A program made the translations under genes and the position numbers. The notes under the pieces are model-generated. The model ran no database searches, was not told where the DNA came from, and saw only the letters and a list, made by a program, of their open reading frames with translations. Of a stretch of DNA of 64,000 nt, positions 1 through 57,339 are shown piece after piece; position 1 is the first letter of the stretch, and every line of letters begins with the position of its first letter. Source of the DNA: Pythium myriotylum (Eukaryota; Oomycota; Peronosporomycetes; Pythiales; Pythiaceae); contig JALJCQ010000011.1 in assembly GCA_023091665.1 (NCBI GenBank), forward strand, positions 496,001 to 560,000. Reading direction: 5' to 3'.

Positions 1-190
1 GTTCGCTCGGTCTCCACCTCTCCCAACCGCGTCCGCATGGGCCCACCGGTCCTCCACGCTGCCCACGATCTCCACCATCTCCACGACCCTGGTGATCCCC
101 AAGATCCCCGCGACCGCAACGGCTGCAAGCGGTCCCTGTAGGTAGCCTGAGTGTTGAGTTCAACCGGGTGGTGTGGCATCTGGGACTCGG

Positions 191-231
191 CTCGGACTCG
201 GACTCGGACTCGGACTCGGACTCGGACTCGG
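191..231 (+). repeat. CTCGGA hexamer microsatellite (unit 1)
   Basis: Six CTCGGA copies plus a partial copy. The equivalent tract lies about 190 bp into every unit and varies from three copies (units 45, 46) to seven (units 6, 40). It is the most frequent source of length change in the array. Confidence 0.95.
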
Positions 232-353
232 CCTCAAACCGACTAGGACGCCCAGGCTCATGTCTCCCCGCGACACGCGGCCGACGAGTGGTGTGCTGGA
301 AGGACGTGACGCTGTGGAGAAGTGGAGGCATGGAGCGTGACGAAGACTGTGCG

Positions 354-389
354 TATGTGTCTGTGTCTGTGTCTGTGTCTGTGTGTGTT
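354..389 (+). repeat. GTGTCT hexamer microsatellite (unit 1)
   Basis: Four GTGTCT copies between a variable TATGTG or TCTGTG edge and a GT run. Other units have two (unit 44), three (units 24, 27-29, 32-34, 41-43, 45, 46) or five (unit 37) copies. Confidence 0.93.
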
Positions 390-446
390 TCTGCGTGTGC
401 GTGTGCGTCTGTCTCGGCCTGTGACTGCGAGTGCGAGTGCAAGTGT

Positions 447-465
447 GGGTGTGGGTGTGGGTGGG
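447..465 (+). other. Canonical G-quadruplex motif on the + strand (unit 1)
   Basis: Four GGG runs at 447-449, 453-455, 459-461 and 463-465 with loops TGT, TGT and T. This fits the standard G3 N1-7 quadruplex rule with very short loops. The same motif is present in every unit, starting 289 bases before the anticodon of the UUG gene in standard units, 295 in units 5 and 34, and 271 in units 35 and 36. Folding is inferred from sequence only. Confidence 0.8.
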
Positions 466-524
466 AGCGCGAGTGAGAGCGCGAGCGAGAGCGATAGCGA
501 GGGCGAGAGCGATAGCGATAGCGA
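466..524 (+). repeat. GAGAGC/GATAGC purine-rich hexamer tract (unit 1)
   Basis: Imperfect GAGCGC, GAGAGC and GATAGC hexamers follow the quadruplex motif. One extra GAGAGC is present in units 5 and 34, and 18 bp are missing in units 35 and 36. Elsewhere the tract appears constant. Confidence 0.85.
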
Positions 525-702
525 GATCCACGCGGGTGGTGCTGGAGGTGGCGTGTGGGGCGGCGGGTTGAGCGTGCGGGCGCTGTGTGTGTTGAAGGTG
601 TCGAACGCAGAGAAGCATGGGTGCGCACGTGTAGTGTATTTGTGTGGGTTTTGTGTTGTCTTTGGGTGGGTGTGAAGTGGTCGTTCGCGCGTGGGGTCAA
701 TT
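525..702. other. Upstream flank of tRNA-Gln(UUG) (unit 1)
   Basis: G/T-rich, essentially invariant between units, and holds no gene I can support. It contains a TTTT run at 649-652, about 50 bp before the tRNA, and the trinucleotide CAA at 698-700, just before the gene. A CAA near the start site is used by polymerase III at plant tRNA genes. Whether it matters here is unknown. No TATA-like box is visible. Confidence 0.5.
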
Positions 703-774
703 GGTCTTATGGTGTAATGGTTAGCACTCTAGACTTTGAATCTAGCGATCCGGGTTCGAGTCCCGGTAGGACCT
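703..774 (+). tRNA. tRNA-Gln-TTG: tRNA-Gln (anticodon UUG), unit 1, reference copy
   Basis: A 72-nt glutamine tRNA gene reading CAA codons. The cloverleaf is complete: acceptor stem 703-709 with 767-773 (one G-U pair), D stem 712-715 with 724-727, anticodon stem 729-733 with 741-745, loop 734-740 with anticodon TTG at 736-738, four-base variable region 746-749, T stem 750-754 with 762-766, T loop TTCGAGT, discriminator T774. U73 is usual for eukaryotic tRNA-Gln. There is no intron and no encoded CCA. The A box lies around 710-720 and the B box GGTTCGAGTCC at 753-763 fits the consensus. A TTTTT run at 776-780, one base past the gene, is a standard polymerase III terminator. Unit 1 spans 1-1259: CTCGGA x6, GTGTCT x4, 11-mer x3, TATGTG allele. 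Confidence 0.98.
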
Positions 775-775
775 G

Positions 776-780
776 TTTTT
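776..780 (+). terminator. RNA polymerase III T5 terminator of tRNA-Gln(UUG), unit 1
   Basis: TTTTT starts two bases after the discriminator base. The same run occupies the same place (gene end +2 to +6) after the first tRNA of each unit. Confidence 0.85.
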
Positions 781-913
781 CGCGCGTTTCGGGACCGTTC
801 AGAGGGCCATTGGACGCGCTGTTATGTGGAGAAGACGCGTGTGTGCGTGTGTGGTTGTAGTTGTGTGCGTATAGCGCAGGAATTGTGTTTTGCGAGAGGC
901 AGGTGTCATGTGT
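781..913. other. Spacer between the two tRNA genes (unit 1)
   Basis: Together with the terminator this makes a constant 139-bp spacer. It holds a TATA at 870-873 (44 bp before the CUG gene) and a TTTT run at 888-891 (22 bp before it). No small RNA gene is recognisable. The T5 run argues that the two tRNAs are separate transcripts, not a dimer. Confidence 0.6.
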
Positions 914-985
914 GGTCTTATGGTGTAATGGTTAGCACTCTAGACTCTGAATCTAGCGATCCGGGTTCAAATCCCGGTAGGACCT
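914..985 (+). tRNA. tRNA-Gln-CTG: tRNA-Gln (anticodon CUG), unit 1, reference copy
   Basis: A 72-nt glutamine tRNA gene reading CAG codons. It matches the UUG gene except at three bases: the first anticodon base (C instead of T, anticodon CTG at 947-949) and two T-loop bases (TTCAAAT instead of TTCGAGT). All stems pair as in the partner and the B box GGTTCAAATCC still fits the consensus. No intron, no encoded CCA, discriminator T985. Unlike its partner it has no T4 or longer run behind it: only TTT at 988-990, and the next T4 is at 1908, in the following unit. It must therefore terminate weakly, by another signal, or by read-through and processing. The pair probably arose by duplication and anticodon change. 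Confidence 0.97.
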
Positions 986-1070
986 CGTTTATGCCAAAAC
1001 ACACACCACAACATGCACCGACAACATCCATGTCTCGGCGAACACGCATCCGCTACGCTCCCTCTACGCC
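986..1070. other. Downstream flank of tRNA-Gln(CUG) (unit 1)
   Basis: CA-rich on the + strand and nearly invariant. Unit 2 has a single C-to-T change at 2259 and unit 23 a 3-bp deletion near 28575. I see no gene. Confidence 0.5.
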
Positions 1071-1122
1071 CACGGCTCGCTCACGGCTCGCTCACGGCCC
1101 GCTCACGGCCCGCTCACGGCCC
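1071..1122 (+). repeat. 11-bp minisatellite GCTCACGGCCC (unit 1)
   Basis: One or more GGCTC-ending copies followed by three GGCCC-ending copies of an 11-mer. Other units carry two or four GGCCC-ending copies. Because 11 is not a multiple of three, each change shifts the overlapping open frames, which is strong evidence that those frames are not translated. Confidence 0.93.
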
Positions 1123-1259
1123 GCTCCGCTCGCCTGTGGCCTCTTGCCCCTGACGCCACAGACGCGCGAGTATGCCACCACGCGGACCGCGTACTCACTC
1201 GACCACTCACCGCCGACGGCACATCGCCTGCCGTGCTGTCCTAGAAGGGTACCCCTCCT
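1123..1259. other. C-rich tail of the unit (unit 1)
   Basis: Continues into the C-rich lead of the next unit (1260-1400). Few G runs on the + strand, so base skew is opposite to that of the block before the tRNAs. No gene or RNA signal recognised. One C-to-T change in this segment is shared only by unit 4 (4921) and unit 46 (57318). Confidence 0.5.
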
Positions 1260-1961
1260 GTTCGCTCGGTCTCCACCTCTCCCAACCGCGTCCGCATGGG
1301 CCCACCGGTCCTCCACGCTGCCCACGATCTCCACCATCTCCACGACCCTGGTGATCCCCAAGATCCCCGCGACCGCAACGGCTGCAAGCGGTCCCTGTAG
1401 GTAGCCTGAGTGTTGAGTTCAACCGGGTGGTGTGGCATCTGGGACTCGGCTCGGACTCGGACTCGGACTCGGACTCGGACTCGGACTCGGCCTCAAACCG
1501 ACTAGGACGCCCAGGCTCATGTCTCCCCGCGACACGCGGCCGACGAGTGGTGTGCTGGAAGGACGTGACGCTGTGGAGAAGTGGAGGCATGGAGCGTGAC
1601 GAAGACTGTGCGTATGTGTCTGTGTCTGTGTCTGTGTCTGTGTGTGTTTCTGCGTGTGCGTGTGCGTCTGTCTCGGCCTGTGACTGCGAGTGCGAGTGCA
1701 AGTGTGGGTGTGGGTGTGGGTGGGAGCGCGAGTGAGAGCGCGAGCGAGAGCGATAGCGAGGGCGAGAGCGATAGCGATAGCGAGATCCACGCGGGTGGTG
1801 CTGGAGGTGGCGTGTGGGGCGGCGGGTTGAGCGTGCGGGCGCTGTGTGTGTTGAAGGTGTCGAACGCAGAGAAGCATGGGTGCGCACGTGTAGTGTATTT
1901 GTGTGGGTTTTGTGTTGTCTTTGGGTGGGTGTGAAGTGGTCGTTCGCGCGTGGGGTCAATT

Positions 1962-2033
1962 GGTCTTATGGTGTAATGGTTAGCACTCTAGACTTTGAAT
2001 CTAGCGATCCGGGTTCGAGTCCCGGTAGGACCT
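1962..2033 (+). tRNA. tRNA-Gln-TTG: tRNA-Gln (UUG), unit 2
   Basis: Unit 2, 1260-2518 (1259 bp): CTCGGA x6, GTGTCT x4, 11-mer x3, TATGTG allele, private T at 2259. Gene body as at 703-774. Confidence 0.97.
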
Positions 2034-2172
2034 GTTTTTCGCGCGTTTCGGGACCGTTCAGAGGGCCATTGGACGCGCTGTTATGTGGAGAAGACGCGTG
2101 TGTGCGTGTGTGGTTGTAGTTGTGTGCGTATAGCGCAGGAATTGTGTTTTGCGAGAGGCAGGTGTCATGTGT

Positions 2173-2244
2173 GGTCTTATGGTGTAATGGTTAGCACTCT
2201 AGACTCTGAATCTAGCGATCCGGGTTCAAATCCCGGTAGGACCT
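2173..2244 (+). tRNA. tRNA-Gln-CTG: tRNA-Gln (CUG), unit 2
   Basis: Partner gene; body as at 914-985. Confidence 0.97.
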
Positions 2245-3220
2245 CGTTTATGCCAAAATACACACCACAACATGCACCGACAACATCCATGTCTCGGCGA
2301 ACACGCATCCGCTACGCTCCCTCTACGCCCACGGCTCGCTCACGGCTCGCTCACGGCCCGCTCACGGCCCGCTCACGGCCCGCTCCGCTCGCCTGTGGCC
2401 TCTTGCCCCTGACGCCACAGACGCGCGAGTATGCCACCACGCGGACCGCGTACTCACTCGACCACTCACCGCCGACGGCACATCGCCTGCCGTGCTGTCC
2501 TAGAAGGGTACCCCTCCTGTTCGCTCGGTCTCCACCTCTCCCAACCGCGTCCGCATGGGCCCACCGGTCCTCCACGCTGCCCACGATCTCCACCATCTCC
2601 ACGACCCTGGTGATCCCCAAGATCCCCGCGACCGCAACGGCTGCAAGCGGTCCCTGTAGGTAGCCTGAGTGTTGAGTTCAACCGGGTGGTGTGGCATCTG
2701 GGACTCGGCTCGGACTCGGACTCGGACTCGGACTCGGACTCGGACTCGGCCTCAAACCGACTAGGACGCCCAGGCTCATGTCTCCCCGCGACACGCGGCC
2801 GACGAGTGGTGTGCTGGAAGGACGTGACGCTGTGGAGAAGTGGAGGCATGGAGCGTGACGAAGACTGTGCGTCTGTGTCTGTGTCTGTGTCTGTGTCTGT
2901 GTGTGTTTCTGCGTGTGCGTGTGCGTCTGTCTCGGCCTGTGACTGCGAGTGCGAGTGCAAGTGTGGGTGTGGGTGTGGGTGGGAGCGCGAGTGAGAGCGC
3001 GAGCGAGAGCGATAGCGAGGGCGAGAGCGATAGCGATAGCGAGATCCACGCGGGTGGTGCTGGAGGTGGCGTGTGGGGCGGCGGGTTGAGCGTGCGGGCG
3101 CTGTGTGTGTTGAAGGTGTCGAACGCAGAGAAGCATGGGTGCGCACGTGTAGTGTATTTGTGTGGGTTTTGTGTTGTCTTTGGGTGGGTGTGAAGTGGTC
3201 GTTCGCGCGTGGGGTCAATT

Positions 3221-3292
3221 GGTCTTATGGTGTAATGGTTAGCACTCTAGACTTTGAATCTAGCGATCCGGGTTCGAGTCCCGGTAGGACCT
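3221..3292 (+). tRNA. tRNA-Gln-TTG: tRNA-Gln (UUG), unit 3
   Basis: Unit 3, 2519-3788 (1270 bp, the longest): CTCGGA x6, GTGTCT x4, 11-mer x4 (only unit with four), TCTGTG allele. Confidence 0.97.
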
Positions 3293-3431
3293 GTTTTTCG
3301 CGCGTTTCGGGACCGTTCAGAGGGCCATTGGACGCGCTGTTATGTGGAGAAGACGCGTGTGTGCGTGTGTGGTTGTAGTTGTGTGCGTATAGCGCAGGAA
3401 TTGTGTTTTGCGAGAGGCAGGTGTCATGTGT

Positions 3432-3503
3432 GGTCTTATGGTGTAATGGTTAGCACTCTAGACTCTGAATCTAGCGATCCGGGTTCAAATCCCGGTAGGA
3501 CCT
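3432..3503 (+). tRNA. tRNA-Gln-CTG: tRNA-Gln (CUG), unit 3
   Basis: Partner gene; body as at 914-985. Confidence 0.97.
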
Positions 3504-4484
3504 CGTTTATGCCAAAACACACACCACAACATGCACCGACAACATCCATGTCTCGGCGAACACGCATCCGCTACGCTCCCTCTACGCCCACGGCTCGCTC
3601 ACGGCTCGCTCACGGCCCGCTCACGGCCCGCTCACGGCCCGCTCACGGCCCGCTCCGCTCGCCTGTGGCCTCTTGCCCCTGACGCCACAGACGCGCGAGT
3701 ATGCCACCACGCGGACCGCGTACTCACTCGACCACTCACCGCCGACGGCACATCGCCTGCCGTGCTGTCCTAGAAGGGTACCCCTCCTGTTCGCTCGGTC
3801 TCCACCTCTCCCAACCGCGTCCGCATGGGCCCACCGGTCCTCCACGCTGCCCACGATCTCCACCATCTCCACGACCCTGGTGATCCCCAAGATCCCCGCG
3901 ACCGCAACGGCTGCAAGCGGTCCCTGTAGGTAGCCTGAGTGTTGAGTTCAACCGGGTGGTGTGGCATCTGGGACTCGGCTCGGACTCGGACTCGGACTCG
4001 GACTCGGACTCGGCCTCAAACCGACTAGGACGCCCAGGCTCATGTCTCCCCGCGACACGCGGCCGACGAGTGGTGTGCTGGAAGGACGTGACGCTGTGGA
4101 GAAGTGGAGGCATGGAGCGTGACGAAGACTGTGCGTCTGTGTCTGTGTCTGTGTCTGTGTCTGTGTGTGTTTCTGCGTGTGCGTGTGCGTCTGTCTCGGC
4201 CTGTGACTGCGAGTGCGAGTGCAAGTGTGGGTGTGGGTGTGGGTGGGAGCGCGAGTGAGAGCGCGAGCGAGAGCGATAGCGAGGGCGAGAGCGATAGCGA
4301 TAGCGAGATCCACGCGGGTGGTGCTGGAGGTGGCGTGTGGGGCGGCGGGTTGAGCGTGCGGGCGCTGTGTGTGTTGAAGGTGTCGAACGCAGAGAAGCAT
4401 GGGTGCGCACGTGTAGTGTATTTGTGTGGGTTTTGTGTTGTCTTTGGGTGGGTGTGAAGTGGTCGTTCGCGCGTGGGGTCAATT

Positions 4485-4556
4485 GGTCTTATGGTGTAAT
4501 GGTTAGCACTCTAGACTTTGAATCTAGCGATCCGGGTTCGAGTCCCGGTAGGACCT
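4485..4556 (+). tRNA. tRNA-Gln-TTG: tRNA-Gln (UUG), unit 4
   Basis: Unit 4, 3789-5030 (1242 bp): CTCGGA x5, GTGTCT x4, 11-mer x2, TCTGTG allele, T at 4921 shared only with unit 46. Confidence 0.97.
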
Positions 4557-4695
4557 GTTTTTCGCGCGTTTCGGGACCGTTCAGAGGGCCATTGGACGCG
4601 CTGTTATGTGGAGAAGACGCGTGTGTGCGTGTGTGGTTGTAGTTGTGTGCGTATAGCGCAGGAATTGTGTTTTGCGAGAGGCAGGTGTCATGTGT

Positions 4696-4767
4696 GGTCT
4701 TATGGTGTAATGGTTAGCACTCTAGACTCTGAATCTAGCGATCCGGGTTCAAATCCCGGTAGGACCT
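4696..4767 (+). tRNA. tRNA-Gln-CTG: tRNA-Gln (CUG), unit 4
   Basis: Partner gene; body as at 914-985. Confidence 0.97.
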
Positions 4768-5738
4768 CGTTTATGCCAAAACACACACCACAACATGCAC
4801 CGACAACATCCATGTCTCGGCGAACACGCATCCGCTACGCTCCCTCTACGCCCACGGCTCGCTCACGGCTCGCTCACGGCCCGCTCACGGCCCGCTCCGC
4901 TCGCCTGTGGCCTCTTGCCCTTGACGCCACAGACGCGCGAGTATGCCACCACGCGGACCGCGTACTCACTCGACCACTCACCGCCGACGGCACATCGCCT
5001 GCCGTGCTGTCCTAGAAGGGTACCCCTCCTGTTCGCTCGGTCTCCACCTCTCCCAACCGCGTCCGCATGGGCCCACCGGTCCTCCACGCTGCCCACGATC
5101 TCCACCATCTCCACGACCCTGGTGATCCCCAAGATCCCCGCGACCGCAACGGCTGCAAGCGGTCCCTGTAGGTAGCCTGAGTGTTGAGTTCAACCGGGTG
5201 GTGTGGCATCTGGGACTCGGCTCGGACTCGGACTCGGACTCGGACTCGGACTCGGACTCGGCCTCAAACCGACTAGGACGCCCAGGCTCATGTCTCCCCG
5301 CGACACGCGGCCGACGAGTGGTGTGCTGGAAGGACGTGACGCTGTGGAGAAGTGGAGGCATGGAGCGTGACGAAGACTGTGCGTCTGTGTCTGTGTCTGT
5401 GTCTGTGTCTGTGTGTGTTTCTGCGTGTGCGTGTGCGTCTGTCTCGGCCTGTGACTGCGAGTGCGAGTGCAAGTGTGGGTGTGGGTGTGGGTGGGAGCGC
5501 GAGTGAGAGCGCGAGCGAGAGCGATAGCGAGGGCGAGAGCGAGAGCGATAGCGATAGCGAGATCCACGCGGGTGGTGCTGGAGGTGGCGTGCGGGGCGGC
5601 GGGTTGAGCGTGCGGGCGCTGTGTGTGTTGAAGGTGTCGAACGCAGAGAAGCATGGGTGCGCACGTGTAGTGTATTTGTGTGGGTTTTGTGTTGTCTTTG
5701 GGTGGGTGTGAAGTGGTCGTTCGCGCGTGGGGTCAATT

Positions 5739-5810
5739 GGTCTTATGGTGTAATGGTTAGCACTCTAGACTTTGAATCTAGCGATCCGGGTTCGAGTCCC
5801 GGTAGGACCT
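5739..5810 (+). tRNA. tRNA-Gln-TTG: tRNA-Gln (UUG), unit 5
   Basis: Unit 5, 5031-6284 (1254 bp): CTCGGA x6, GTGTCT x4, one extra GAGAGC, 11-mer x2, TCTGTG allele, private C at 5592. Confidence 0.97.
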
Positions 5811-5949
5811 GTTTTTCGCGCGTTTCGGGACCGTTCAGAGGGCCATTGGACGCGCTGTTATGTGGAGAAGACGCGTGTGTGCGTGTGTGGTTGTAGTTGT
5901 GTGCGTATAGCGCAGGAATTGTGTTTTGCGAGAGGCAGGTGTCATGTGT

Positions 5950-6021
5950 GGTCTTATGGTGTAATGGTTAGCACTCTAGACTCTGAATCTAGCGATCCGG
6001 GTTCAAATCCCGGTAGGACCT
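5950..6021 (+). tRNA. tRNA-Gln-CTG: tRNA-Gln (CUG), unit 5
   Basis: Partner gene; body as at 914-985. Confidence 0.97.
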
Positions 6022-6992
6022 CGTTTATGCCAAAACACACACCACAACATGCACCGACAACATCCATGTCTCGGCGAACACGCATCCGCTACGCTCCCTC
6101 TACGCCCACGGCTCGCTCACGGCTCGCTCACGGCCCGCTCACGGCCCGCTCCGCTCGCCTGTGGCCTCTTGCCCCTGACGCCACAGACGCGCGAGTATGC
6201 CACCACGCGGACCGCGTACTCACTCGACCACTCACCGCCGACGGCACATCGCCTGCCGTGCTGTCCTAGAAGGGTACCCCTCCTGTTCGCTCGGTCTCCA
6301 CCTCTCCCAACCGCGTCCGCATGGGCCCACCGGTCCTCCACGCTGCCCACGATCTCCACCATCTCCACGACCCTGGTGATCCCCAAGATCCCCGCGACCG
6401 CAACGGCTGCAAGCGGTCCCTGTAGGTAGCCTGAGTGTTGAGTTCAACCGGGTGGTGTGGCATCTGGGACTCGGCTCGGACTCGGACTCGGACTCGGACT
6501 CGGACTCGGACTCGGACTCGGCCTCAAACCGACTAGGACGCCCAGGCTCATGTCTCCCCGCGACACGCGGCCGACGAGTGGTGTGCTGGAAGGACGTGAC
6601 GCTGTGGAGAAGTGGAGGCATGGAGCGTGACGAAGACTGTGCGTCTGTGTCTGTGTCTGTGTCTGTGTCTGTGTGTGTTTCTGCGTGTGCGTGTGCGTCT
6701 GTCTCGGCCTGTGACTGCGAGTGCGAGTGCAAGTGTGGGTGTGGGTGTGGGTGGGAGCGCGAGTGAGAGCGCGAGCGAGAGCGATAGCGAGGGCGAGAGC
6801 GATAGCGATAGCGAGATCCACGCGGGTGGTGCTGGAGGTGGCGTGTGGGGCGGCGGGTTGAGCGTGCGGGCGCTGTGTGTGTTGAAGGTGTCGAACGCAG
6901 AGAAGCATGGGTGCGCACGTGTAGTGTATTTGTGTGGGTTTTGTGTTGTCTTTGGGTGGGTGTGAAGTGGTCGTTCGCGCGTGGGGTCAATT

Positions 6993-7064
6993 GGTCTTAT
7001 GGTGTAATGGTTAGCACTCTAGACTTTGAATCTAGCGATCCGGGTTCGAGTCCCGGTAGGACCT
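6993..7064 (+). tRNA. tRNA-Gln-TTG: tRNA-Gln (UUG), unit 6
   Basis: Unit 6, 6285-7538 (1254 bp): CTCGGA x7, GTGTCT x4, 11-mer x2, TCTGTG allele. Confidence 0.97.
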
Positions 7065-7203
7065 GTTTTTCGCGCGTTTCGGGACCGTTCAGAGGGCCAT
7101 TGGACGCGCTGTTATGTGGAGAAGACGCGTGTGTGCGTGTGTGGTTGTAGTTGTGTGCGTATAGCGCAGGAATTGTGTTTTGCGAGAGGCAGGTGTCATG
7201 TGT

Positions 7204-7275
7204 GGTCTTATGGTGTAATGGTTAGCACTCTAGACTCTGAATCTAGCGATCCGGGTTCAAATCCCGGTAGGACCT
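7204..7275 (+). tRNA. tRNA-Gln-CTG: tRNA-Gln (CUG), unit 6
   Basis: Partner gene; body as at 914-985. Confidence 0.97.
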
Positions 7276-8240
7276 CGTTTATGCCAAAACACACACCACA
7301 ACATGCACCGACAACATCCATGTCTCGGCGAACACGCATCCGCTACGCTCCCTCTACGCCCACGGCTCGCTCACGGCTCGCTCACGGCCCGCTCACGGCC
7401 CGCTCCGCTCGCCTGTGGCCTCTTGCCCCTGACGCCACAGACGCGCGAGTATGCCACCACGCGGACCGCGTACTCACTCGACCACTCACCGCCGACGGCA
7501 CATCGCCTGCCGTGCTGTCCTAGAAGGGTACCCCTCCTGTTCGCTCGGTCTCCACCTCTCCCAACCGCGTCCGCATGGGCCCACCGGTCCTCCACGCTGC
7601 CCACGATCTCCACCATCTCCACGACCCTGGTGATCCCCAAGATCCCCGCGACCGCAACGGCTGCAAGCGGTCCCTGTAGGTAGCCTGAGTGTTGAGTTCA
7701 ACCGGGTGGTGTGGCATCTGGGACTCGGCTCGGACTCGGACTCGGACTCGGACTCGGACTCGGACTCGGCCTCAAACCGACTAGGACGCCCAGGCTCATG
7801 TCTCCCCGCGACACGCGGCCGACGAGTGGTGTGCTGGAAGGACGTGACGCTGTGGAGAAGTGGAGGCATGGAGCGTGACGAAGACTGTGCGTATGTGTCT
7901 GTGTCTGTGTCTGTGTCTGTGTGTGTTTCTGCGTGTGCGTGTGCGTCTGTCTCGGCCTGTGACTGCGAGTGCGAGTGCAAGTGTGGGTGTGGGTGTGGGT
8001 GGGAGCGCGAGTGAGAGCGCGAGCGAGAGCGATAGCGAGGGCGAGAGCGATAGCGATAGCGAGATCCACGCGGGTGGTGCTGGAGGTGGCGTGTGGGGCG
8101 GCGGGTTGAGCGTGCGGGCGCTGTGTGTGTTGAAGGTGTCGAACGCAGAGAAGCATGGGTGCGCACGTGTAGTGTATTTGTGTGGGTTTTGTGTTGTCTT
8201 TGGGTGGGTGTGAAGTGGTCGTTCGCGCGTGGGGTCAATT

Positions 8241-8312
8241 GGTCTTATGGTGTAATGGTTAGCACTCTAGACTTTGAATCTAGCGATCCGGGTTCGAGTC
8301 CCGGTAGGACCT
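8241..8312 (+). tRNA. tRNA-Gln-TTG: tRNA-Gln (UUG), unit 7
   Basis: Unit 7, 7539-8786 (1248 bp): CTCGGA x6, GTGTCT x4, 11-mer x2, TATGTG allele. First of a run of seven such units (7-13). Confidence 0.97.
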
Positions 8313-8451
8313 GTTTTTCGCGCGTTTCGGGACCGTTCAGAGGGCCATTGGACGCGCTGTTATGTGGAGAAGACGCGTGTGTGCGTGTGTGGTTGTAGTT
8401 GTGTGCGTATAGCGCAGGAATTGTGTTTTGCGAGAGGCAGGTGTCATGTGT

Positions 8452-8523
8452 GGTCTTATGGTGTAATGGTTAGCACTCTAGACTCTGAATCTAGCGATCC
8501 GGGTTCAAATCCCGGTAGGACCT
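8452..8523 (+). tRNA. tRNA-Gln-CTG: tRNA-Gln (CUG), unit 7
   Basis: Partner gene; body as at 914-985. Confidence 0.97.
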
Positions 8524-9488
8524 CGTTTATGCCAAAACACACACCACAACATGCACCGACAACATCCATGTCTCGGCGAACACGCATCCGCTACGCTCCC
8601 TCTACGCCCACGGCTCGCTCACGGCTCGCTCACGGCCCGCTCACGGCCCGCTCCGCTCGCCTGTGGCCTCTTGCCCCTGACGCCACAGACGCGCGAGTAT
8701 GCCACCACGCGGACCGCGTACTCACTCGACCACTCACCGCCGACGGCACATCGCCTGCCGTGCTGTCCTAGAAGGGTACCCCTCCTGTTCGCTCGGTCTC
8801 CACCTCTCCCAACCGCGTCCGCATGGGCCCACCGGTCCTCCACGCTGCCCACGATCTCCACCATCTCCACGACCCTGGTGATCCCCAAGATCCCCGCGAC
8901 CGCAACGGCTGCAAGCGGTCCCTGTAGGTAGCCTGAGTGTTGAGTTCAACCGGGTGGTGTGGCATCTGGGACTCGGCTCGGACTCGGACTCGGACTCGGA
9001 CTCGGACTCGGACTCGGCCTCAAACCGACTAGGACGCCCAGGCTCATGTCTCCCCGCGACACGCGGCCGACGAGTGGTGTGCTGGAAGGACGTGACGCTG
9101 TGGAGAAGTGGAGGCATGGAGCGTGACGAAGACTGTGCGTATGTGTCTGTGTCTGTGTCTGTGTCTGTGTGTGTTTCTGCGTGTGCGTGTGCGTCTGTCT
9201 CGGCCTGTGACTGCGAGTGCGAGTGCAAGTGTGGGTGTGGGTGTGGGTGGGAGCGCGAGTGAGAGCGCGAGCGAGAGCGATAGCGAGGGCGAGAGCGATA
9301 GCGATAGCGAGATCCACGCGGGTGGTGCTGGAGGTGGCGTGTGGGGCGGCGGGTTGAGCGTGCGGGCGCTGTGTGTGTTGAAGGTGTCGAACGCAGAGAA
9401 GCATGGGTGCGCACGTGTAGTGTATTTGTGTGGGTTTTGTGTTGTCTTTGGGTGGGTGTGAAGTGGTCGTTCGCGCGTGGGGTCAATT

Positions 9489-9560
9489 GGTCTTATGGTG
9501 TAATGGTTAGCACTCTAGACTTTGAATCTAGCGATCCGGGTTCGAGTCCCGGTAGGACCT
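9489..9560 (+). tRNA. tRNA-Gln-TTG: tRNA-Gln (UUG), unit 8
   Basis: Unit 8, 8787-10034 (1248 bp): same type as unit 7. Confidence 0.97.
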
Positions 9561-9699
9561 GTTTTTCGCGCGTTTCGGGACCGTTCAGAGGGCCATTGGA
9601 CGCGCTGTTATGTGGAGAAGACGCGTGTGTGCGTGTGTGGTTGTAGTTGTGTGCGTATAGCGCAGGAATTGTGTTTTGCGAGAGGCAGGTGTCATGTGT

Positions 9700-9771
9700 G
9701 GTCTTATGGTGTAATGGTTAGCACTCTAGACTCTGAATCTAGCGATCCGGGTTCAAATCCCGGTAGGACCT
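9700..9771 (+). tRNA. tRNA-Gln-CTG: tRNA-Gln (CUG), unit 8
   Basis: Partner gene; body as at 914-985. Confidence 0.97.
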
Positions 9772-48164: not shown

Positions 48165-48236
48165 GGTCTTATGGTGTAATGGTTAGCACTCTAGACTCTG
48201 AATCTAGCGATCCGGGTTCGAGTCCCGGTAGGACCT
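48165..48236 (+). tRNA. tRNA-Gln-CTG: tRNA-Gln with switched anticodon (CUG in the UUG position), unit 39
   Basis: Unit 39, 47463-48721 (1259 bp), type of unit 1. The gene sits in the first-gene position, keeps the first-gene T loop TTCGAGT and the TTTTT terminator at 48238-48242, but its anticodon at 48198-48200 is CTG instead of TTG (T-to-C at 48198). The cloverleaf is otherwise intact, so it should still be charged with glutamine but read CAG. It is either a point mutation or a very short conversion tract from the partner gene. It is the only tRNA body in the window in which I see a change. Confidence 0.95.
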
Positions 48237-48375
48237 GTTTTTCGCGCGTTTCGGGACCGTTCAGAGGGCCATTGGACGCGCTGTTATGTGGAGAAGACGC
48301 GTGTGTGCGTGTGTGGTTGTAGTTGTGTGCGTATAGCGCAGGAATTGTGTTTTGCGAGAGGCAGGTGTCATGTGT

Positions 48376-48447
48376 GGTCTTATGGTGTAATGGTTAGCAC
48401 TCTAGACTCTGAATCTAGCGATCCGGGTTCAAATCCCGGTAGGACCT
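48376..48447 (+). tRNA. tRNA-Gln-CTG: tRNA-Gln (CUG), unit 39
   Basis: Normal second gene with T loop TTCAAAT, so this unit carries two CUG genes. Confidence 0.97.
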
Positions 48448-49429
48448 CGTTTATGCCAAAACACACACCACAACATGCACCGACAACATCCATGTCTCGG
48501 CGAACACGCATCCGCTACGCTCCCTCTACGCCCACGGCTCGCTCACGGCTCGCTCACGGCCCGCTCACGGCCCGCTCACGGCCCGCTCCGCTCGCCTGTG
48601 GCCTCTTGCCCCTGACGCCACAGACGCGCGAGTATGCCACCACGCGGACCGCGTACTCACTCGACCACTCACCGCCGACGGCACATCGCCTGCCGTGCTG
48701 TCCTAGAAGGGTACCCCTCCTGTTCGCTCGGTCTCCACCTCTCCCAACCGCGTCCGCATGGGCCCACCGGTCCTCCACGCTGCCCACGATCTCCACCATC
48801 TCCACGACCCTGGTGATCCCCAAGATCCCCGCGACCGCAACGGCTGCAAGCGGTCCCTGTAGGTAGCCTGAGTGTTGAGTTCAACCGGGTGGTGTGGCAT
48901 CTGGGACTCGGCTCGGACTCGGACTCGGACTCGGACTCGGACTCGGACTCGGACTCGGCCTCAAACCGACTAGGACGCCCAGGCTCATGTCTCCCCGCGA
49001 CACGCGGCCGACGAGTGGTGTGCTGGAAGGACGTGACGCTGTGGAGAAGTGGAGGCATGGAGCGTGACGAAGACTGTGCGTCTGTGTCTGTGTCTGTGTC
49101 TGTGTCTGTGTGTGTTTCTGCGTGTGCGTGTGCGTCTGTCTCGGCCTGTGACTGCGAGTGCGAGTGCAAGTGTGGGTGTGGGTGTGGGTGGGAGCGCGAG
49201 TGAGAGCGCGAGCGAGAGCGATAGCGAGGGCGAGAGCGATAGCGATAGCGAGATCCACGCGGGTGGTGCTGGAGGTGGCGTGTGGGGCGGCGGGTTGAGC
49301 GTGCGGGCGCTGTGTGTGTTGAAGGTGTCGAACGCAGAGAAGCATGGGTGCGCACGTGTAGTGTATTTGTGTGGGTTTTGTGTTGTCTTTGGGTGGGTGT
49401 GAAGTGGTCGTTCGCGCGTGGGGTCAATT

Positions 49430-49501
49430 GGTCTTATGGTGTAATGGTTAGCACTCTAGACTTTGAATCTAGCGATCCGGGTTCGAGTCCCGGTAGGACC
49501 T
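49430..49501 (+). tRNA. tRNA-Gln-TTG: tRNA-Gln (UUG), unit 40
   Basis: Unit 40, 48722-49986 (1265 bp): CTCGGA x7, GTGTCT x4, 11-mer x3, TCTGTG allele. Confidence 0.97.
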
Positions 49502-49640
49502 GTTTTTCGCGCGTTTCGGGACCGTTCAGAGGGCCATTGGACGCGCTGTTATGTGGAGAAGACGCGTGTGTGCGTGTGTGGTTGTAGTTGTGTGCGTATA
49601 GCGCAGGAATTGTGTTTTGCGAGAGGCAGGTGTCATGTGT

Positions 49641-49712
49641 GGTCTTATGGTGTAATGGTTAGCACTCTAGACTCTGAATCTAGCGATCCGGGTTCAAATC
49701 CCGGTAGGACCT
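49641..49712 (+). tRNA. tRNA-Gln-CTG: tRNA-Gln (CUG), unit 40
   Basis: Partner gene; body as at 914-985. Confidence 0.97.
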
Positions 49713-50676
49713 CGTTTATGCCAAAACACACACCACAACATGCACCGACAACATCCATGTCTCGGCGAACACGCATCCGCTACGCTCCCTCTACGCCCAC
49801 GGCTCGCTCACGGCTCGCTCACGGCCCGCTCACGGCCCGCTCACGGCCCGCTCCGCTCGCCTGTGGCCTCTTGCCCCTGACGCCACAGACGCGCGAGTAT
49901 GCCACCACGCGGACCGCGTACTCACTCGACCACTCACCGCCGACGGCACATCGCCTGCCGTGCTGTCCTAGAAGGGTACCCCTCCTGTTCGCTCGGTCTC
50001 CACCTCTCCCAACCGCGTCCGCATGGGCCCACCGGTCCTCCACGCTGCCCACGATCTCCACCATCTCCACGACCCTGGTGATCCCCAAGATCCCCGCGAC
50101 CGCAACGGCTGCAAGCGGTCCCTGTAGGTAGCCTGAGTGTTGAGTTCAACCGGGTGGTGTGGCATCTGGGACTCGGCTCGGACTCGGACTCGGACTCGGA
50201 CTCGGACTCGGCCTCAAACCGACTAGGACGCCCAGGCTCATGTCTCCCCGCGACACGCGGCCGACGAGTGGTGTGCTGGAAGGACGTGACGCTGTGGAGA
50301 AGTGGAGGCATGGAGCGTGACGAAGACTGTGCGTCTGTGTCTGTGTCTGTGTCTGTGTGTGTTTCTGCGTGTGCGTGTGCGTCTGTCTCGGCCTGTGACT
50401 GCGAGTGCGAGTGCAAGTGTGGGTGTGGGTGTGGGTGGGAGCGCGAGTGAGAGCGCGAGCGAGAGCGATAGCGAGGGCGAGAGCGATAGCGATAGCGAGA
50501 TCCACGCGGGTGGTGCTGGAGGTGGCGTGTGGGGCGGCGGGTTGAGCGTGCGGGCGCTGTGTGTGTTGAAGGTGTCGAACGCAGAGAAGCATGGGTGCGC
50601 ACGTGTAGTGTATTTGTGTGGGTTTTGTGTTGTCTTTGGGTGGGTGTGAAGTGGTCGTTCGCGCGTGGGGTCAATT

Positions 50677-50748
50677 GGTCTTATGGTGTAATGGTTAGCA
50701 CTCTAGACTTTGAATCTAGCGATCCGGGTTCGAGTCCCGGTAGGACCT
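50677..50748 (+). tRNA. tRNA-Gln-TTG: tRNA-Gln (UUG), unit 41
   Basis: Unit 41, 49987-51233 (1247 bp): CTCGGA x5, GTGTCT x3, 11-mer x3, TCTGTG allele, without the private A of unit 24. First of three like units (41-43). Confidence 0.97.
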
Positions 50749-50887
50749 GTTTTTCGCGCGTTTCGGGACCGTTCAGAGGGCCATTGGACGCGCTGTTATG
50801 TGGAGAAGACGCGTGTGTGCGTGTGTGGTTGTAGTTGTGTGCGTATAGCGCAGGAATTGTGTTTTGCGAGAGGCAGGTGTCATGTGT

Positions 50888-50959
50888 GGTCTTATGGTGT
50901 AATGGTTAGCACTCTAGACTCTGAATCTAGCGATCCGGGTTCAAATCCCGGTAGGACCT
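50888..50959 (+). tRNA. tRNA-Gln-CTG: tRNA-Gln (CUG), unit 41
   Basis: Partner gene; body as at 914-985. Confidence 0.97.
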
Positions 50960-51923
50960 CGTTTATGCCAAAACACACACCACAACATGCACCGACAACA
51001 TCCATGTCTCGGCGAACACGCATCCGCTACGCTCCCTCTACGCCCACGGCTCGCTCACGGCTCGCTCACGGCCCGCTCACGGCCCGCTCACGGCCCGCTC
51101 CGCTCGCCTGTGGCCTCTTGCCCCTGACGCCACAGACGCGCGAGTATGCCACCACGCGGACCGCGTACTCACTCGACCACTCACCGCCGACGGCACATCG
51201 CCTGCCGTGCTGTCCTAGAAGGGTACCCCTCCTGTTCGCTCGGTCTCCACCTCTCCCAACCGCGTCCGCATGGGCCCACCGGTCCTCCACGCTGCCCACG
51301 ATCTCCACCATCTCCACGACCCTGGTGATCCCCAAGATCCCCGCGACCGCAACGGCTGCAAGCGGTCCCTGTAGGTAGCCTGAGTGTTGAGTTCAACCGG
51401 GTGGTGTGGCATCTGGGACTCGGCTCGGACTCGGACTCGGACTCGGACTCGGACTCGGCCTCAAACCGACTAGGACGCCCAGGCTCATGTCTCCCCGCGA
51501 CACGCGGCCGACGAGTGGTGTGCTGGAAGGACGTGACGCTGTGGAGAAGTGGAGGCATGGAGCGTGACGAAGACTGTGCGTCTGTGTCTGTGTCTGTGTC
51601 TGTGTGTGTTTCTGCGTGTGCGTGTGCGTCTGTCTCGGCCTGTGACTGCGAGTGCGAGTGCAAGTGTGGGTGTGGGTGTGGGTGGGAGCGCGAGTGAGAG
51701 CGCGAGCGAGAGCGATAGCGAGGGCGAGAGCGATAGCGATAGCGAGATCCACGCGGGTGGTGCTGGAGGTGGCGTGTGGGGCGGCGGGTTGAGCGTGCGG
51801 GCGCTGTGTGTGTTGAAGGTGTCGAACGCAGAGAAGCATGGGTGCGCACGTGTAGTGTATTTGTGTGGGTTTTGTGTTGTCTTTGGGTGGGTGTGAAGTG
51901 GTCGTTCGCGCGTGGGGTCAATT

Positions 51924-51995
51924 GGTCTTATGGTGTAATGGTTAGCACTCTAGACTTTGAATCTAGCGATCCGGGTTCGAGTCCCGGTAGGACCT
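51924..51995 (+). tRNA. tRNA-Gln-TTG: tRNA-Gln (UUG), unit 42
   Basis: Unit 42, 51234-52480 (1247 bp): same type as unit 41. Confidence 0.97.
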
Positions 51996-52134
51996 GTTTT
52001 TCGCGCGTTTCGGGACCGTTCAGAGGGCCATTGGACGCGCTGTTATGTGGAGAAGACGCGTGTGTGCGTGTGTGGTTGTAGTTGTGTGCGTATAGCGCAG
52101 GAATTGTGTTTTGCGAGAGGCAGGTGTCATGTGT

Positions 52135-52206
52135 GGTCTTATGGTGTAATGGTTAGCACTCTAGACTCTGAATCTAGCGATCCGGGTTCAAATCCCGGTA
52201 GGACCT
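52135..52206 (+). tRNA. tRNA-Gln-CTG: tRNA-Gln (CUG), unit 42
   Basis: Partner gene; body as at 914-985. Confidence 0.97.
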
Positions 52207-53170
52207 CGTTTATGCCAAAACACACACCACAACATGCACCGACAACATCCATGTCTCGGCGAACACGCATCCGCTACGCTCCCTCTACGCCCACGGCTCG
52301 CTCACGGCTCGCTCACGGCCCGCTCACGGCCCGCTCACGGCCCGCTCCGCTCGCCTGTGGCCTCTTGCCCCTGACGCCACAGACGCGCGAGTATGCCACC
52401 ACGCGGACCGCGTACTCACTCGACCACTCACCGCCGACGGCACATCGCCTGCCGTGCTGTCCTAGAAGGGTACCCCTCCTGTTCGCTCGGTCTCCACCTC
52501 TCCCAACCGCGTCCGCATGGGCCCACCGGTCCTCCACGCTGCCCACGATCTCCACCATCTCCACGACCCTGGTGATCCCCAAGATCCCCGCGACCGCAAC
52601 GGCTGCAAGCGGTCCCTGTAGGTAGCCTGAGTGTTGAGTTCAACCGGGTGGTGTGGCATCTGGGACTCGGCTCGGACTCGGACTCGGACTCGGACTCGGA
52701 CTCGGCCTCAAACCGACTAGGACGCCCAGGCTCATGTCTCCCCGCGACACGCGGCCGACGAGTGGTGTGCTGGAAGGACGTGACGCTGTGGAGAAGTGGA
52801 GGCATGGAGCGTGACGAAGACTGTGCGTCTGTGTCTGTGTCTGTGTCTGTGTGTGTTTCTGCGTGTGCGTGTGCGTCTGTCTCGGCCTGTGACTGCGAGT
52901 GCGAGTGCAAGTGTGGGTGTGGGTGTGGGTGGGAGCGCGAGTGAGAGCGCGAGCGAGAGCGATAGCGAGGGCGAGAGCGATAGCGATAGCGAGATCCACG
53001 CGGGTGGTGCTGGAGGTGGCGTGTGGGGCGGCGGGTTGAGCGTGCGGGCGCTGTGTGTGTTGAAGGTGTCGAACGCAGAGAAGCATGGGTGCGCACGTGT
53101 AGTGTATTTGTGTGGGTTTTGTGTTGTCTTTGGGTGGGTGTGAAGTGGTCGTTCGCGCGTGGGGTCAATT

Positions 53171-53242
53171 GGTCTTATGGTGTAATGGTTAGCACTCTAG
53201 ACTTTGAATCTAGCGATCCGGGTTCGAGTCCCGGTAGGACCT
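53171..53242 (+). tRNA. tRNA-Gln-TTG: tRNA-Gln (UUG), unit 43
   Basis: Unit 43, 52481-53727 (1247 bp): same type as unit 41. Confidence 0.97.
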
Positions 53243-53381
53243 GTTTTTCGCGCGTTTCGGGACCGTTCAGAGGGCCATTGGACGCGCTGTTATGTGGAGA
53301 AGACGCGTGTGTGCGTGTGTGGTTGTAGTTGTGTGCGTATAGCGCAGGAATTGTGTTTTGCGAGAGGCAGGTGTCATGTGT

Positions 53382-53453
53382 GGTCTTATGGTGTAATGGT
53401 TAGCACTCTAGACTCTGAATCTAGCGATCCGGGTTCAAATCCCGGTAGGACCT
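53382..53453 (+). tRNA. tRNA-Gln-CTG: tRNA-Gln (CUG), unit 43
   Basis: Partner gene; body as at 914-985. Confidence 0.97.
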
Positions 53454-54411
53454 CGTTTATGCCAAAACACACACCACAACATGCACCGACAACATCCATG
53501 TCTCGGCGAACACGCATCCGCTACGCTCCCTCTACGCCCACGGCTCGCTCACGGCTCGCTCACGGCCCGCTCACGGCCCGCTCACGGCCCGCTCCGCTCG
53601 CCTGTGGCCTCTTGCCCCTGACGCCACAGACGCGCGAGTATGCCACCACGCGGACCGCGTACTCACTCGACCACTCACCGCCGACGGCACATCGCCTGCC
53701 GTGCTGTCCTAGAAGGGTACCCCTCCTGTTCGCTCGGTCTCCACCTCTCCCAACCGCGTCCGCATGGGCCCACCGGTCCTCCACGCTGCCCACGATCTCC
53801 ACCATCTCCACGACCCTGGTGATCCCCAAGATCCCCGCGACCGCAACGGCTGCAAGCGGTCCCTGTAGGTAGCCTGAGTGTTGAGTTCAACCGGGTGGTG
53901 TGGCATCTGGGACTCGGCTCGGACTCGGACTCGGACTCGGACTCGGACTCGGCCTCAAACCGACTAGGACGCCCAGGCTCATGTCTCCCCGCGACACGCG
54001 GCCGACGAGTGGTGTGCTGGAAGGACGTGACGCTGTGGAGAAGTGGAGGCATGGAGCGTGACGAAGACTGTGCGTCTGTGTCTGTGTCTGTGTGTGTTTC
54101 TGCGTGTGCGTGTGCGTCTGTCTCGGCCTGTGACTGCGAGTGCGAGTGCAAGTGTGGGTGTGGGTGTGGGTGGGAGCGCGAGTGAGAGCGCGAGCGAGAG
54201 CGATAGCGAGGGCGAGAGCGATAGCGATAGCGAGATCCACGCGGGTGGTGCTGGAGGTGGCGTGTGGGGCGGCGGGTTGAGCGTGCGGGCGCTGTGTGTG
54301 TTGAAGGTGTCGAACGCAGAGAAGCATGGGTGCGCACGTGTAGTGTATTTGTGTGGGTTTTGTGTTGTCTTTGGGTGGGTGTGAAGTGGTCGTTCGCGCG
54401 TGGGGTCAATT

Positions 54412-54483
54412 GGTCTTATGGTGTAATGGTTAGCACTCTAGACTTTGAATCTAGCGATCCGGGTTCGAGTCCCGGTAGGACCT
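54412..54483 (+). tRNA. tRNA-Gln-TTG: tRNA-Gln (UUG), unit 44
   Basis: Unit 44, 53728-54968 (1241 bp): as unit 41 but GTGTCT x2, the fewest in the array. Confidence 0.97.
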
Positions 54484-54622
54484 GTTTTTCGCGCGTTTCG
54501 GGACCGTTCAGAGGGCCATTGGACGCGCTGTTATGTGGAGAAGACGCGTGTGTGCGTGTGTGGTTGTAGTTGTGTGCGTATAGCGCAGGAATTGTGTTTT
54601 GCGAGAGGCAGGTGTCATGTGT

Positions 54623-54694
54623 GGTCTTATGGTGTAATGGTTAGCACTCTAGACTCTGAATCTAGCGATCCGGGTTCAAATCCCGGTAGGACCT
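54623..54694 (+). tRNA. tRNA-Gln-CTG: tRNA-Gln (CUG), unit 44
   Basis: Partner gene; body as at 914-985. Confidence 0.97.
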
Positions 54695-55646
54695 CGTTTA
54701 TGCCAAAACACACACCACAACATGCACCGACAACATCCATGTCTCGGCGAACACGCATCCGCTACGCTCCCTCTACGCCCACGGCTCGCTCACGGCTCGC
54801 TCACGGCCCGCTCACGGCCCGCTCACGGCCCGCTCCGCTCGCCTGTGGCCTCTTGCCCCTGACGCCACAGACGCGCGAGTATGCCACCACGCGGACCGCG
54901 TACTCACTCGACCACTCACCGCCGACGGCACATCGCCTGCCGTGCTGTCCTAGAAGGGTACCCCTCCTGTTCGCTCGGTCTCCACCTCTCCCAACCGCGT
55001 CCGCATGGGCCCACCGGTCCTCCACGCTGCCCACGATCTCCACCATCTCCACGACCCTGGTGATCCCCAAGATCCCCGCGACCGCAACGGCTGCAAGCGG
55101 TCCCTGTAGGTAGCCTGAGTGTTGAGTTCAACCGGGTGGTGTGGCATCTGGGACTCGGCTCGGACTCGGACTCGGACTCGGCCTCAAACCGACTAGGACG
55201 CCCAGGCTCATGTCTCCCCGCGACACGCGGCCGACGAGTGGTGTGCTGGAAGGACGTGACGCTGTGGAGAAGTGGAGGCATGGAGCGTGACGAAGACTGT
55301 GCGTCTGTGTCTGTGTCTGTGTCTGTGTGTGTTTCTGCGTGTGCGTGTGCGTCTGTCTCGGCCTGTGACTGCGAGTGCGAGTGCAAGTGTGGGTGTGGGT
55401 GTGGGTGGGAGCGCGAGTGAGAGCGCGAGCGAGAGCGATAGCGAGGGCGAGAGCGATAGCGATAGCGAGATCCACGCGGGTGGTGCTGGAGGTGGCGTGT
55501 GGGGCGGCGGGTTGAGCGTGCGGGCGCTGTGTGTGTTGAAGGTGTCGAACGCAGAGAAGCATGGGTGCGCACGTGTAGTGTATTTGTGTGGGTTTTGTGT
55601 TGTCTTTGGGTGGGTGTGAAGTGGTCGTTCGCGCGTGGGGTCAATT

Positions 55647-55718
55647 GGTCTTATGGTGTAATGGTTAGCACTCTAGACTTTGAATCTAGCGATCCGGGTT
55701 CGAGTCCCGGTAGGACCT
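55647..55718 (+). tRNA. tRNA-Gln-TTG: tRNA-Gln (UUG), unit 45
   Basis: Unit 45, 54969-56192 (1224 bp, the shortest complete unit): CTCGGA x3, GTGTCT x3, 11-mer x2, TCTGTG allele. Confidence 0.97.
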
Positions 55719-55857
55719 GTTTTTCGCGCGTTTCGGGACCGTTCAGAGGGCCATTGGACGCGCTGTTATGTGGAGAAGACGCGTGTGTGCGTGTGTGGTT
55801 GTAGTTGTGTGCGTATAGCGCAGGAATTGTGTTTTGCGAGAGGCAGGTGTCATGTGT

Positions 55858-55929
55858 GGTCTTATGGTGTAATGGTTAGCACTCTAGACTCTGAATCTAG
55901 CGATCCGGGTTCAAATCCCGGTAGGACCT
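55858..55929 (+). tRNA. tRNA-Gln-CTG: tRNA-Gln (CUG), unit 45
   Basis: Partner gene; body as at 914-985. Confidence 0.97.
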
Positions 55930-56870
55930 CGTTTATGCCAAAACACACACCACAACATGCACCGACAACATCCATGTCTCGGCGAACACGCATCCGCTAC
56001 GCTCCCTCTACGCCCACGGCTCGCTCACGGCTCGCTCACGGCCCGCTCACGGCCCGCTCCGCTCGCCTGTGGCCTCTTGCCCCTGACGCCACAGACGCGC
56101 GAGTATGCCACCACGCGGACCGCGTACTCACTCGACCACTCACCGCCGACGGCACATCGCCTGCCGTGCTGTCCTAGAAGGGTACCCCTCCTGTTCGCTC
56201 GGTCTCCACCTCTCCCAACCGCGTCCGCATGGGCCCACCGGTCCTCCACGCTGCCCACGATCTCCACCATCTCCACGACCCTGGTGATCCCCAAGATCCC
56301 CGCGACCGCAACGGCTGCAAGCGGTCCCTGTAGGTAGCCTGAGTGTTGAGTTCAACCGGGTGGTGTGGCATCTGGGACTCGGCTCGGACTCGGACTCGGA
56401 CTCGGCCTCAAACCGACTAGGACGCCCAGGCTCATGTCTCCCCGCGACACGCGGCCGACGAGTGGTGTGCTGGAAGGACGTGACGCTGTGGAGAAGTGGA
56501 GGCATGGAGCGTGACGAAGACTGTGCGTCTGTGTCTGTGTCTGTGTCTGTGTGTGTTTCTGCGTGTGCGTGTGCGTCTGTCTCGGCCTGTGACTGCGAGT
56601 GCGAGTGCAAGTGTGGGTGTGGGTGTGGGTGGGAGCGCGAGTGAGAGCGCGAGCGAGAGCGATAGCGAGGGCGAGAGCGATAGCGATAGCGAGATCCACG
56701 CGGGTGGTGCTGGAGGTGGCGTGTGGGGCGGCGGGTTGAGCGTGCGGGCGCTGTGTGTGTTGAAGGTGTCGAACGCAGAGAAGCATGGGTGCGCACGTGT
56801 AGTGTATTTGTGTGGGTTTTGTGTTGTCTTTGGGTGGGTGTGAAGTGGTCGTTCGCGCGTGGGGTCAATT

Positions 56871-56942
56871 GGTCTTATGGTGTAATGGTTAGCACTCTAG
56901 ACTTTGAATCTAGCGATCCGGGTTCGAGTCCCGGTAGGACCT
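56871..56942 (+). tRNA. tRNA-Gln-TTG: tRNA-Gln (UUG), unit 46
   Basis: Unit 46, 56193-57339, truncated at the junction: CTCGGA x3, GTGTCT x3, and an altered minisatellite with one extra GGCTC-ending copy before two GGCCC-ending copies; T at 57318 shared with unit 4. Confidence 0.97.
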
Positions 56943-57081
56943 GTTTTTCGCGCGTTTCGGGACCGTTCAGAGGGCCATTGGACGCGCTGTTATGTGGAGA
57001 AGACGCGTGTGTGCGTGTGTGGTTGTAGTTGTGTGCGTATAGCGCAGGAATTGTGTTTTGCGAGAGGCAGGTGTCATGTGT

Positions 57082-57153
57082 GGTCTTATGGTGTAATGGT
57101 TAGCACTCTAGACTCTGAATCTAGCGATCCGGGTTCAAATCCCGGTAGGACCT
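57082..57153 (+). tRNA. tRNA-Gln-CTG: tRNA-Gln (CUG), unit 46 (last of the array)
   Basis: Last tRNA before the second array; body as at 914-985. The first T5 run behind it is at 57417-57421, inside the first 1052-bp unit, 263 bp downstream. Confidence 0.97.
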
Positions 57154-57337
57154 CGTTTATGCCAAAACACACACCACAACATGCACCGACAACATCCATG
57201 TCTCGGCGAACACGCATCCGCTACGCTCCCTCTACGCCCACGGCTCGCTCACGGCTCGCTCACGGCTCGCTCACGGCCCGCTCACGGCCCGCTCCGCTCG
57301 CCTGTGGCCTCTTGCCCTTGACGCCACAGACGCGCGA

Positions 57338-57339
57338 GT
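57338..57339. other. Junction of the two tandem arrays
   Basis: Left of this point the sequence follows the tRNA unit; right of it, the 1052-bp unit. Only the dinucleotide GT is shared at the crossover. This looks like end-joining or microhomology-mediated joining. No inserted bases, target duplication or transposon end is visible. Confidence 0.9.

Follow-up and report, generated by a model that had tools for sequence, protein, structure and literature searches.

Large groups of transfer RNA (tRNA) genes are held to have arisen many times independently in eukaryotes (PMC2888827), and the closest described system for the locus reported here is that of the oomycete Phytophthora infestans (PMC9584435). 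The chromosomes of P. infestans carry 7,519 tRNA genes, ∼64% of them in same-gene arrays and 36% in arrays of dimers or trimers, with about two thirds of tRNA families on one chromosome. Its tRNA gene numbers are backed by Illumina read depth, unequal crossing-over has been proposed, and the same paper gives tRNA gene counts for further long-read assemblies of oomycetes, among them the Pythium group. The present locus lies in a 64-kb window (the whole stretch of DNA that was analysed, positions 496,001–560,000 of contig C11), taken from a 58.73-Mb assembly of 55 contigs in which C11 measures 2.77 Mb. Most of the window is occupied by a tandem array of paired tRNA-Gln genes. We read this array, with a probability of about 0.88, as the glutamine tRNA genes of an oomycete in which many tRNA genes are arranged in long tandem arrays, each containing one isoacceptor or a small set. 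The array is real and is a further case of the published oomycete layout; the initial annotation had offered it as a candidate for an undescribed system, but the same organization, including a Gln CTG/TTG dimer, has already been published for P. infestans (PMC9584435).

Organization of the tRNA-Gln array

ARAGORN and unit alignment place 46 near-identical units in the window, between positions 1 and 57,339; together they carry 92 tRNA-Gln genes, all on the + strand. A chance origin of these calls was rejected because ten dinucleotide-preserving shuffles of the window, used as a control for ARAGORN, yielded 0 tRNA-Gln genes. The tRNAs within window positions 1–2600 score 68.5 and 68.2 bits against the Rfam tRNA model. 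Four additional units lie to the left of the window, and the whole array extends from the first to the last tRNA over C11:491,667–553,154, with 50 units and 100 genes as assembled. The initial count of 46 units and 92 genes was therefore correct for the window and a slight understatement for the array. ARAGORN found no further tRNA in the 264 kb made up of the window and 100 kb on each side.

Each unit comprises two genes, TTG and then CTG, separated by a spacer of 139 bp. Unit lengths range from 1224 to 1270 bp, except for the last unit, which is truncated at 1147 bp; at position 57,340 the array gives way to a second tandem array composed of 1052-bp units. In the first unit of the window, tRNA-Gln (TTG) occupies positions 703–774, the spacer positions 775–913 and tRNA-Gln (CTG) positions 914–985, all on the + strand, with both genes identified by ARAGORN and Rfam. 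The exact sequence of this TTG gene occurs 49 times in the array and that of the CTG gene 50 times, and all 50 units share one spacer sequence, in agreement with the constant spacing and single orientation described at the outset. The earlier statement that UUG and CUG anticodons are paired in every unit holds for 45 of the 46 window units. In the remaining unit, ARAGORN and sequence comparison show that one substitution, at anticodon position 34, has turned the TTG of the first gene (positions 48,165–48,236, + strand) into CTG; the gene is still a tRNA-Gln. The first unit also contains, on the + strand, a CGGACT microsatellite (approximately 186–233; 3–7 copies per unit over 49 units), a TGTGTC-type microsatellite (approximately 353–388) whose length varies among units, and an 11-bp CGCTCACGGCC-type repeat (approximately 1070–1124) of variable copy number.

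Variation among units and array evolution

Most of the variation among the 46 window units is in the number of repeats in three microsatellites. The remaining differences comprise nine substitution columns, one of them within a tRNA, and small indels: two units have an indel in a fourth repeat, two have gained 1 bp and one has lost 3 bp. Among 49 anchored units, counting the truncated last unit and excluding the partial first, 26 are distinct. The differences are ordered along the array: over 48 units, the three repeat lengths show 46 mismatches between neighbours, compared with a mean of 71.4 in shuffled arrays, and 0 of 10,000 shuffles reach the observed value. In addition, five consecutive units are repeated side by side as a block. 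An equal or longer block was obtained in 1 of 5,000 label shuffles, by a statistic that was picked after the block had been seen. Neighbour similarity and block duplication together form the pattern left by unequal crossing-over and fit that process. Unequal crossing-over and gene conversion would keep the copy number high and the units alike, and the tRNAs would be retained as essential genes in an array whose exact copy number drifts. With essential tRNAs and a drifting copy number, the size of the array would need neither a demand-driven nor a structural function.

Concentration of tRNA families in arrays

The Gln array accounts for every tRNA-Gln gene detected in the assembly. A pattern of 35 places covering the D arm to the anticodon arm, searched with up to 3 mismatches, matched 100 places in the whole genome, every one of them within this array, and the reversed control gave 0; a tRNA-Gln gene that had diverged by more than 3 mismatches, or that is absent from the assembly, would escape such a search. 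The corresponding tRNA-Trp pattern gave 31 matches, 31 of them in a Thr-Ser-Trp array at C11:1.615–1.728 Mb, and the tRNA-Phe pattern gave 17, of which an array on C3 holds 16 and C17 the other. For these three families, 147 of 148 pattern matches thus fall within arrays, and each family lies largely at one location, as described for P. infestans. Three more B-box sites are present in the region of the C3 Phe array, none of which matches the tRNA-Phe pattern.

At least seven further arrays (Thr-Ser-Trp, Lys, Leu, Arg, Ile, Val and Phe), together with an irregular Ala cluster, are present in the genome, and the amplified isoacceptor pair singled out in the initial annotation is therefore not an isolated oddity. 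Counting the Gln-Gln pair, the tandem tRNA genes of this genome include monomers, dimers and trimers of the P. infestans type. The extents of these arrays were taken from Rfam and B-box hits and confirmed in samples only; outside the Gln array, the genes sampled and confirmed by ARAGORN number between 3 and 11 in each array (7 for Lys, in two samples). A first look with Rfam, in which 63 of 3081 candidates were scored, was the source of the Lys hits and of the Thr hits on C11. The Lys-TTT array, with 22 Rfam hits, spans C12:818–865 kb. In the trimer array of Thr-CGT, Ser-GCT and Trp-CCA, whose extent on C11 is that of the tRNA-Trp matches, the Trp gene is on the strand opposite to the Thr and Ser genes. 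Contig C1 carries the Leu-AAG array (559–629 kb, at least 41 hits), the Arg-ACG array (2.794–2.858 Mb, at least 30 hits) and the Val-TAC array (1.751–1.779 Mb, at least 8 hits), the last of which has ∼4-kb units. An Ile-TAT array with at least 35 hits is located at C11:1.304–1.367 Mb, and the array on C3 with the 16 tRNA-Phe matches is of the Phe-GAA type. The Gln unit has no similarity to samples of four of the other arrays when the low-complexity filter is on.

Two patterns gave more hits than their reversed controls, GGGTTCGANTCC with 475 hits (16 reversed) and GGTTCGANCCC with 831 hits (97 reversed); extents were read from the first 100 places of each, and the places listed in the search that gave the Leu and Arg arrays include organelle hits on contig C2. 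The B-box patterns HGGTTCGANTCC (177 hits, 63 reversed) and GGTTCAANYCC (378 hits, 258 reversed) have much background. The latter gave the lead to the Ala-TGC cluster at C7:572,001–578,000, where two identical genes are accompanied by a third that is interrupted in the T arm by ∼140 bp; this cluster is too small and irregular for the label of an array. A 13-base initiator-Met pattern gave 0 matches and is uninformative, as it may not fit this species.

Predicted transcription and termination

Each tRNA of the Gln array would be transcribed by RNA polymerase III from internal A and B boxes, which we infer from the tRNA sequences. A run of five T residues at positions 776–780, at the start of the spacer, is the expected polymerase III terminator of the first gene. 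Downstream of the CTG gene at 914–985, no run of four T residues is found within 400 nt. The Lys-TTT and Leu-AAG genes that were examined also have no such run within 60 nt downstream, and a TTTC microsatellite of ∼60 nt begins almost immediately after tRNA-Leu (AAG). The absence of T runs after the CTG, Lys and Leu genes makes it likely that termination relies on other signals, and for the second gene of the Gln pair it is probably not of the usual kind.

Several points weigh against our reading of the locus as the glutamine tRNA genes of this organism. Transcription of any copy in the array is a prediction, and in 46 of 46 window units no run of four T residues lies within 262 nt downstream of the second (CTG) gene. 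The tRNA columns are not visibly less variable than the spacer, since one of the nine substitution columns falls in a tRNA, approximately the expectation from length; purifying selection within the array is thus without support. The dimeric and trimeric arrays of P. infestans are more diverse than its monomeric ones (PMC9584435), whereas the present array of Gln dimers is almost uniform. Finally, the figure of 50 units is an assembly count.

Alternative explanations

The alternative that fares best, although we consider it unlikely, is that tRNA arrays serve as boundary, replication-pausing or nuclear-organizing elements and that a high copy number is kept for this reason. Matson et al. consider a role in nuclear or chromatin organization possible (PMC9584435), a human tRNA tandem repeat has been implicated as a boundary element (PMC4041453), and two of the compositions reported for P. 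infestans arrays recur here. The sequence pattern of the Gln array is nevertheless accounted for by neutral unequal crossing-over, and a position at a chromosome end is excluded. The array lies 0.49 Mb from the left end of C11 and 2.2 Mb from its right end, where a telomere is found, and these distances place it in the interior. The chromosome-end role suggested in the initial annotation was rejected on this ground. Six contig ends were sampled over 800 bases each: TTTAGGG occurs in 40 copies at the right end of C11 and in 39 copies at the right end of C12, and is absent from the other four, namely both ends of C1 and the left end of each of C11 and C12. The left end of C11 may not coincide with the end of a chromosome. 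At their right ends, C11 and C12 appear to carry the same subtelomeric sequence.

We regard as very improbable a second alternative, in which the units are tRNA-derived elements resembling short interspersed nuclear elements (SINEs) that are annotated as tRNA genes, as for clusters in Peronospora effusa (PMC11540230). The term SINE-like is used there for one-place, probably immobile clusters of near-identical tRNA-bearing repeats, which also contain open reading frames (ORFs) between the tRNAs, and the Gln units resemble such elements in being long (∼1.25 kb) and variable in repeat number. Here, however, the repeat appears not to be separate from the functional tRNA set. Every detected tRNA-Gln gene is in the array, and non-functional arrays would leave both tRNA-Gln (100 of 100 matches) and tRNA-Trp (31 of 31) without a detected source, which for this genome argues against a SINE-like nature. 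The tRNA models match over their full length, and two different glutamine anticodons are represented. A genome-wide search with a 35-mer from one stretch of the spacer, allowing up to 3 mismatches, placed 50 of 50 matches in the Gln array and found no dispersed copy of that stretch; dispersed copies are characteristic of classical SINEs, although the P. effusa clusters are undispersed too. The SINE-like explanation was rejected for this genome because all detected tRNA-Gln genes and all tRNA-Trp matches lie in arrays and the spacer stretch searched is undispersed; a selfish element that disperses gains no support from that one stretch.

It is equally improbable that misassembly inflated the copy number. 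Tandem arrays are hard to assemble, some adjacent units are identical, and contig C2 of the same assembly is an organelle concatemer, but 26 of 49 units are distinct and their length variation is ordered, and in P. infestans the tRNA gene numbers matched Illumina read depth (PMC9584435).

The least likely explanation is codon demand, in which a proteome rich in glutamine would have driven the amplification. A set of 100 genes is large for a single amino acid, but Gln and Phe make up 4.14% and 4.05%, respectively, of the 18,277 codons sampled from 30 ORFs in the flanks (at least 300 residues each, unconfirmed and from one region) and have 100 and 17 pattern-matched genes. This is a roughly six-fold gap at equal codon use. 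In this comparison, in which two families form a small sample, gene number is thus not in step with demand, and the proposal made for this locus at the outset was rejected.

The neighbouring array of 1052-bp units

The second tandem array begins at window position 57,340 and continues past the end of the window at 64,000, spanning C11:553,340 to ∼617.2 kb (+ strand), with 61 copies of the 1052-bp unit and no tRNA identified by ARAGORN. Its connection with the tRNA array appears to be one of adjacency only. Each of the 61 copies, 11 of which are distinct, contains an intact 199-residue ORF, for which no match was found in Pfam, the PDB or a large protein collection. A relative with 44% identity (83 of 189 residues) is present in a single frame on C4 near 1,136 kb, which suggests that the ORF is a real gene. 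A DNA search with the 1052-bp repeat returned a single distant match, on C4, and missed the array itself, as very common words were skipped. The first 60 copies have 8 differences within the ORF and ∼29 outside it, 20 of the latter corresponding to one shared variant. The changes within the ORF (2 silent and 6 not) are as expected from random change, and selection on the 199-residue protein within the array is therefore without support. The structure predicted for the ORF product from its sequence alone has very low confidence, with a mean predicted local distance difference test (pLDDT) score of 39.6.

Host lineage and the mitochondrial contig

The lineage of the host was examined with the mitochondrial rpl5 protein. 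Among the best 120 of 399 matches, all organism names are those of oomycetes; the closest named match is Pythium insidiosum with 85% identity, Phytophthora proteins are at ∼71–79%, and an unnamed database protein is 99% identical. The host is accordingly an oomycete, and this one protein would place it as Pythium-like. Contig C2 appears, from its tRNA positions and gene content, to be a concatemer of a mitochondrial genome that repeats every 72,126 bp and includes a large inverted repeat.

Comparison with described tRNA arrays

Outside the oomycetes, an older parallel is Entamoeba, and the resemblance drawn in the initial annotation is sound with respect to the layout and to the short tandem repeats in the spacers. 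Entamoeba has tandem tRNA arrays of several compositions with uniform units, and in E. histolytica and E. dispar the spacers carry short tandem repeats (PMC2652664). The spacers of these two species are AT-rich, whereas the array described here is GC-rich, and a telomere-like sequence was not found in E. histolytica, in contrast to the TTTAGGG repeats at 2 of 6 contig ends sampled here. Entamoeba is also an unrelated lineage, the rpl5 of the present assembly being of the oomycete type. The eukaryotic clusters surveyed in PMC2888827 are similar in forming large groups of tRNA genes, but Phytophthora is mentioned 0 times in the text of the survey.

Within the oomycetes, Peronospora effusa has near-identical tRNA-bearing repeats that expand and contract, with each cluster in its own place (PMC11540230). 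These were read as SINE-like and have ORFs between the tRNAs, whereas the array described here is the sole detected source of tRNA-Gln. A search of titles and the beginnings of abstracts found, beyond PMC9584435, no open-licence report on oomycete tRNA arrays for Pythium or Globisporangium, and no open-licence literature was found that joins the terms SINE-like, tRNA, oomycete and tandem.

The similarity to P. infestans (PMC9584435) extends to individual compositions. Both genomes contain monomeric, dimeric and trimeric tandem tRNA arrays, a dimer of Gln (CTG) and Gln (TTG), and a monomeric Leu (AAG) array with near-identical units, and the Thr (CGT)-Trp (CCA)-Ser (GCT) trimer of P. infestans can be compared with the Thr-Ser-Trp trimer found here. 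P. infestans is another oomycete, with 219 Mb in pseudochromosomes compared with 58.7 Mb in the present assembly. With the Gln array, the published tRNA arrays of oomycetes gain a probable case from the Pythium group. The finding also suggests that different oomycetes have array compositions in common, and it makes special explanations for glutamine unnecessary. A tentative and rather doubtful extension of these observations is that the Gln-Gln, Thr-Ser-Trp and Leu-AAG compositions have been kept since the common ancestor of Pythium-like species and Phytophthora, with the ancestral layout held for a structural or regulatory reason. If this is true, the oomycetes would possess an ancestral tRNA array layout that is comparable to that of Entamoeba but independent of it.

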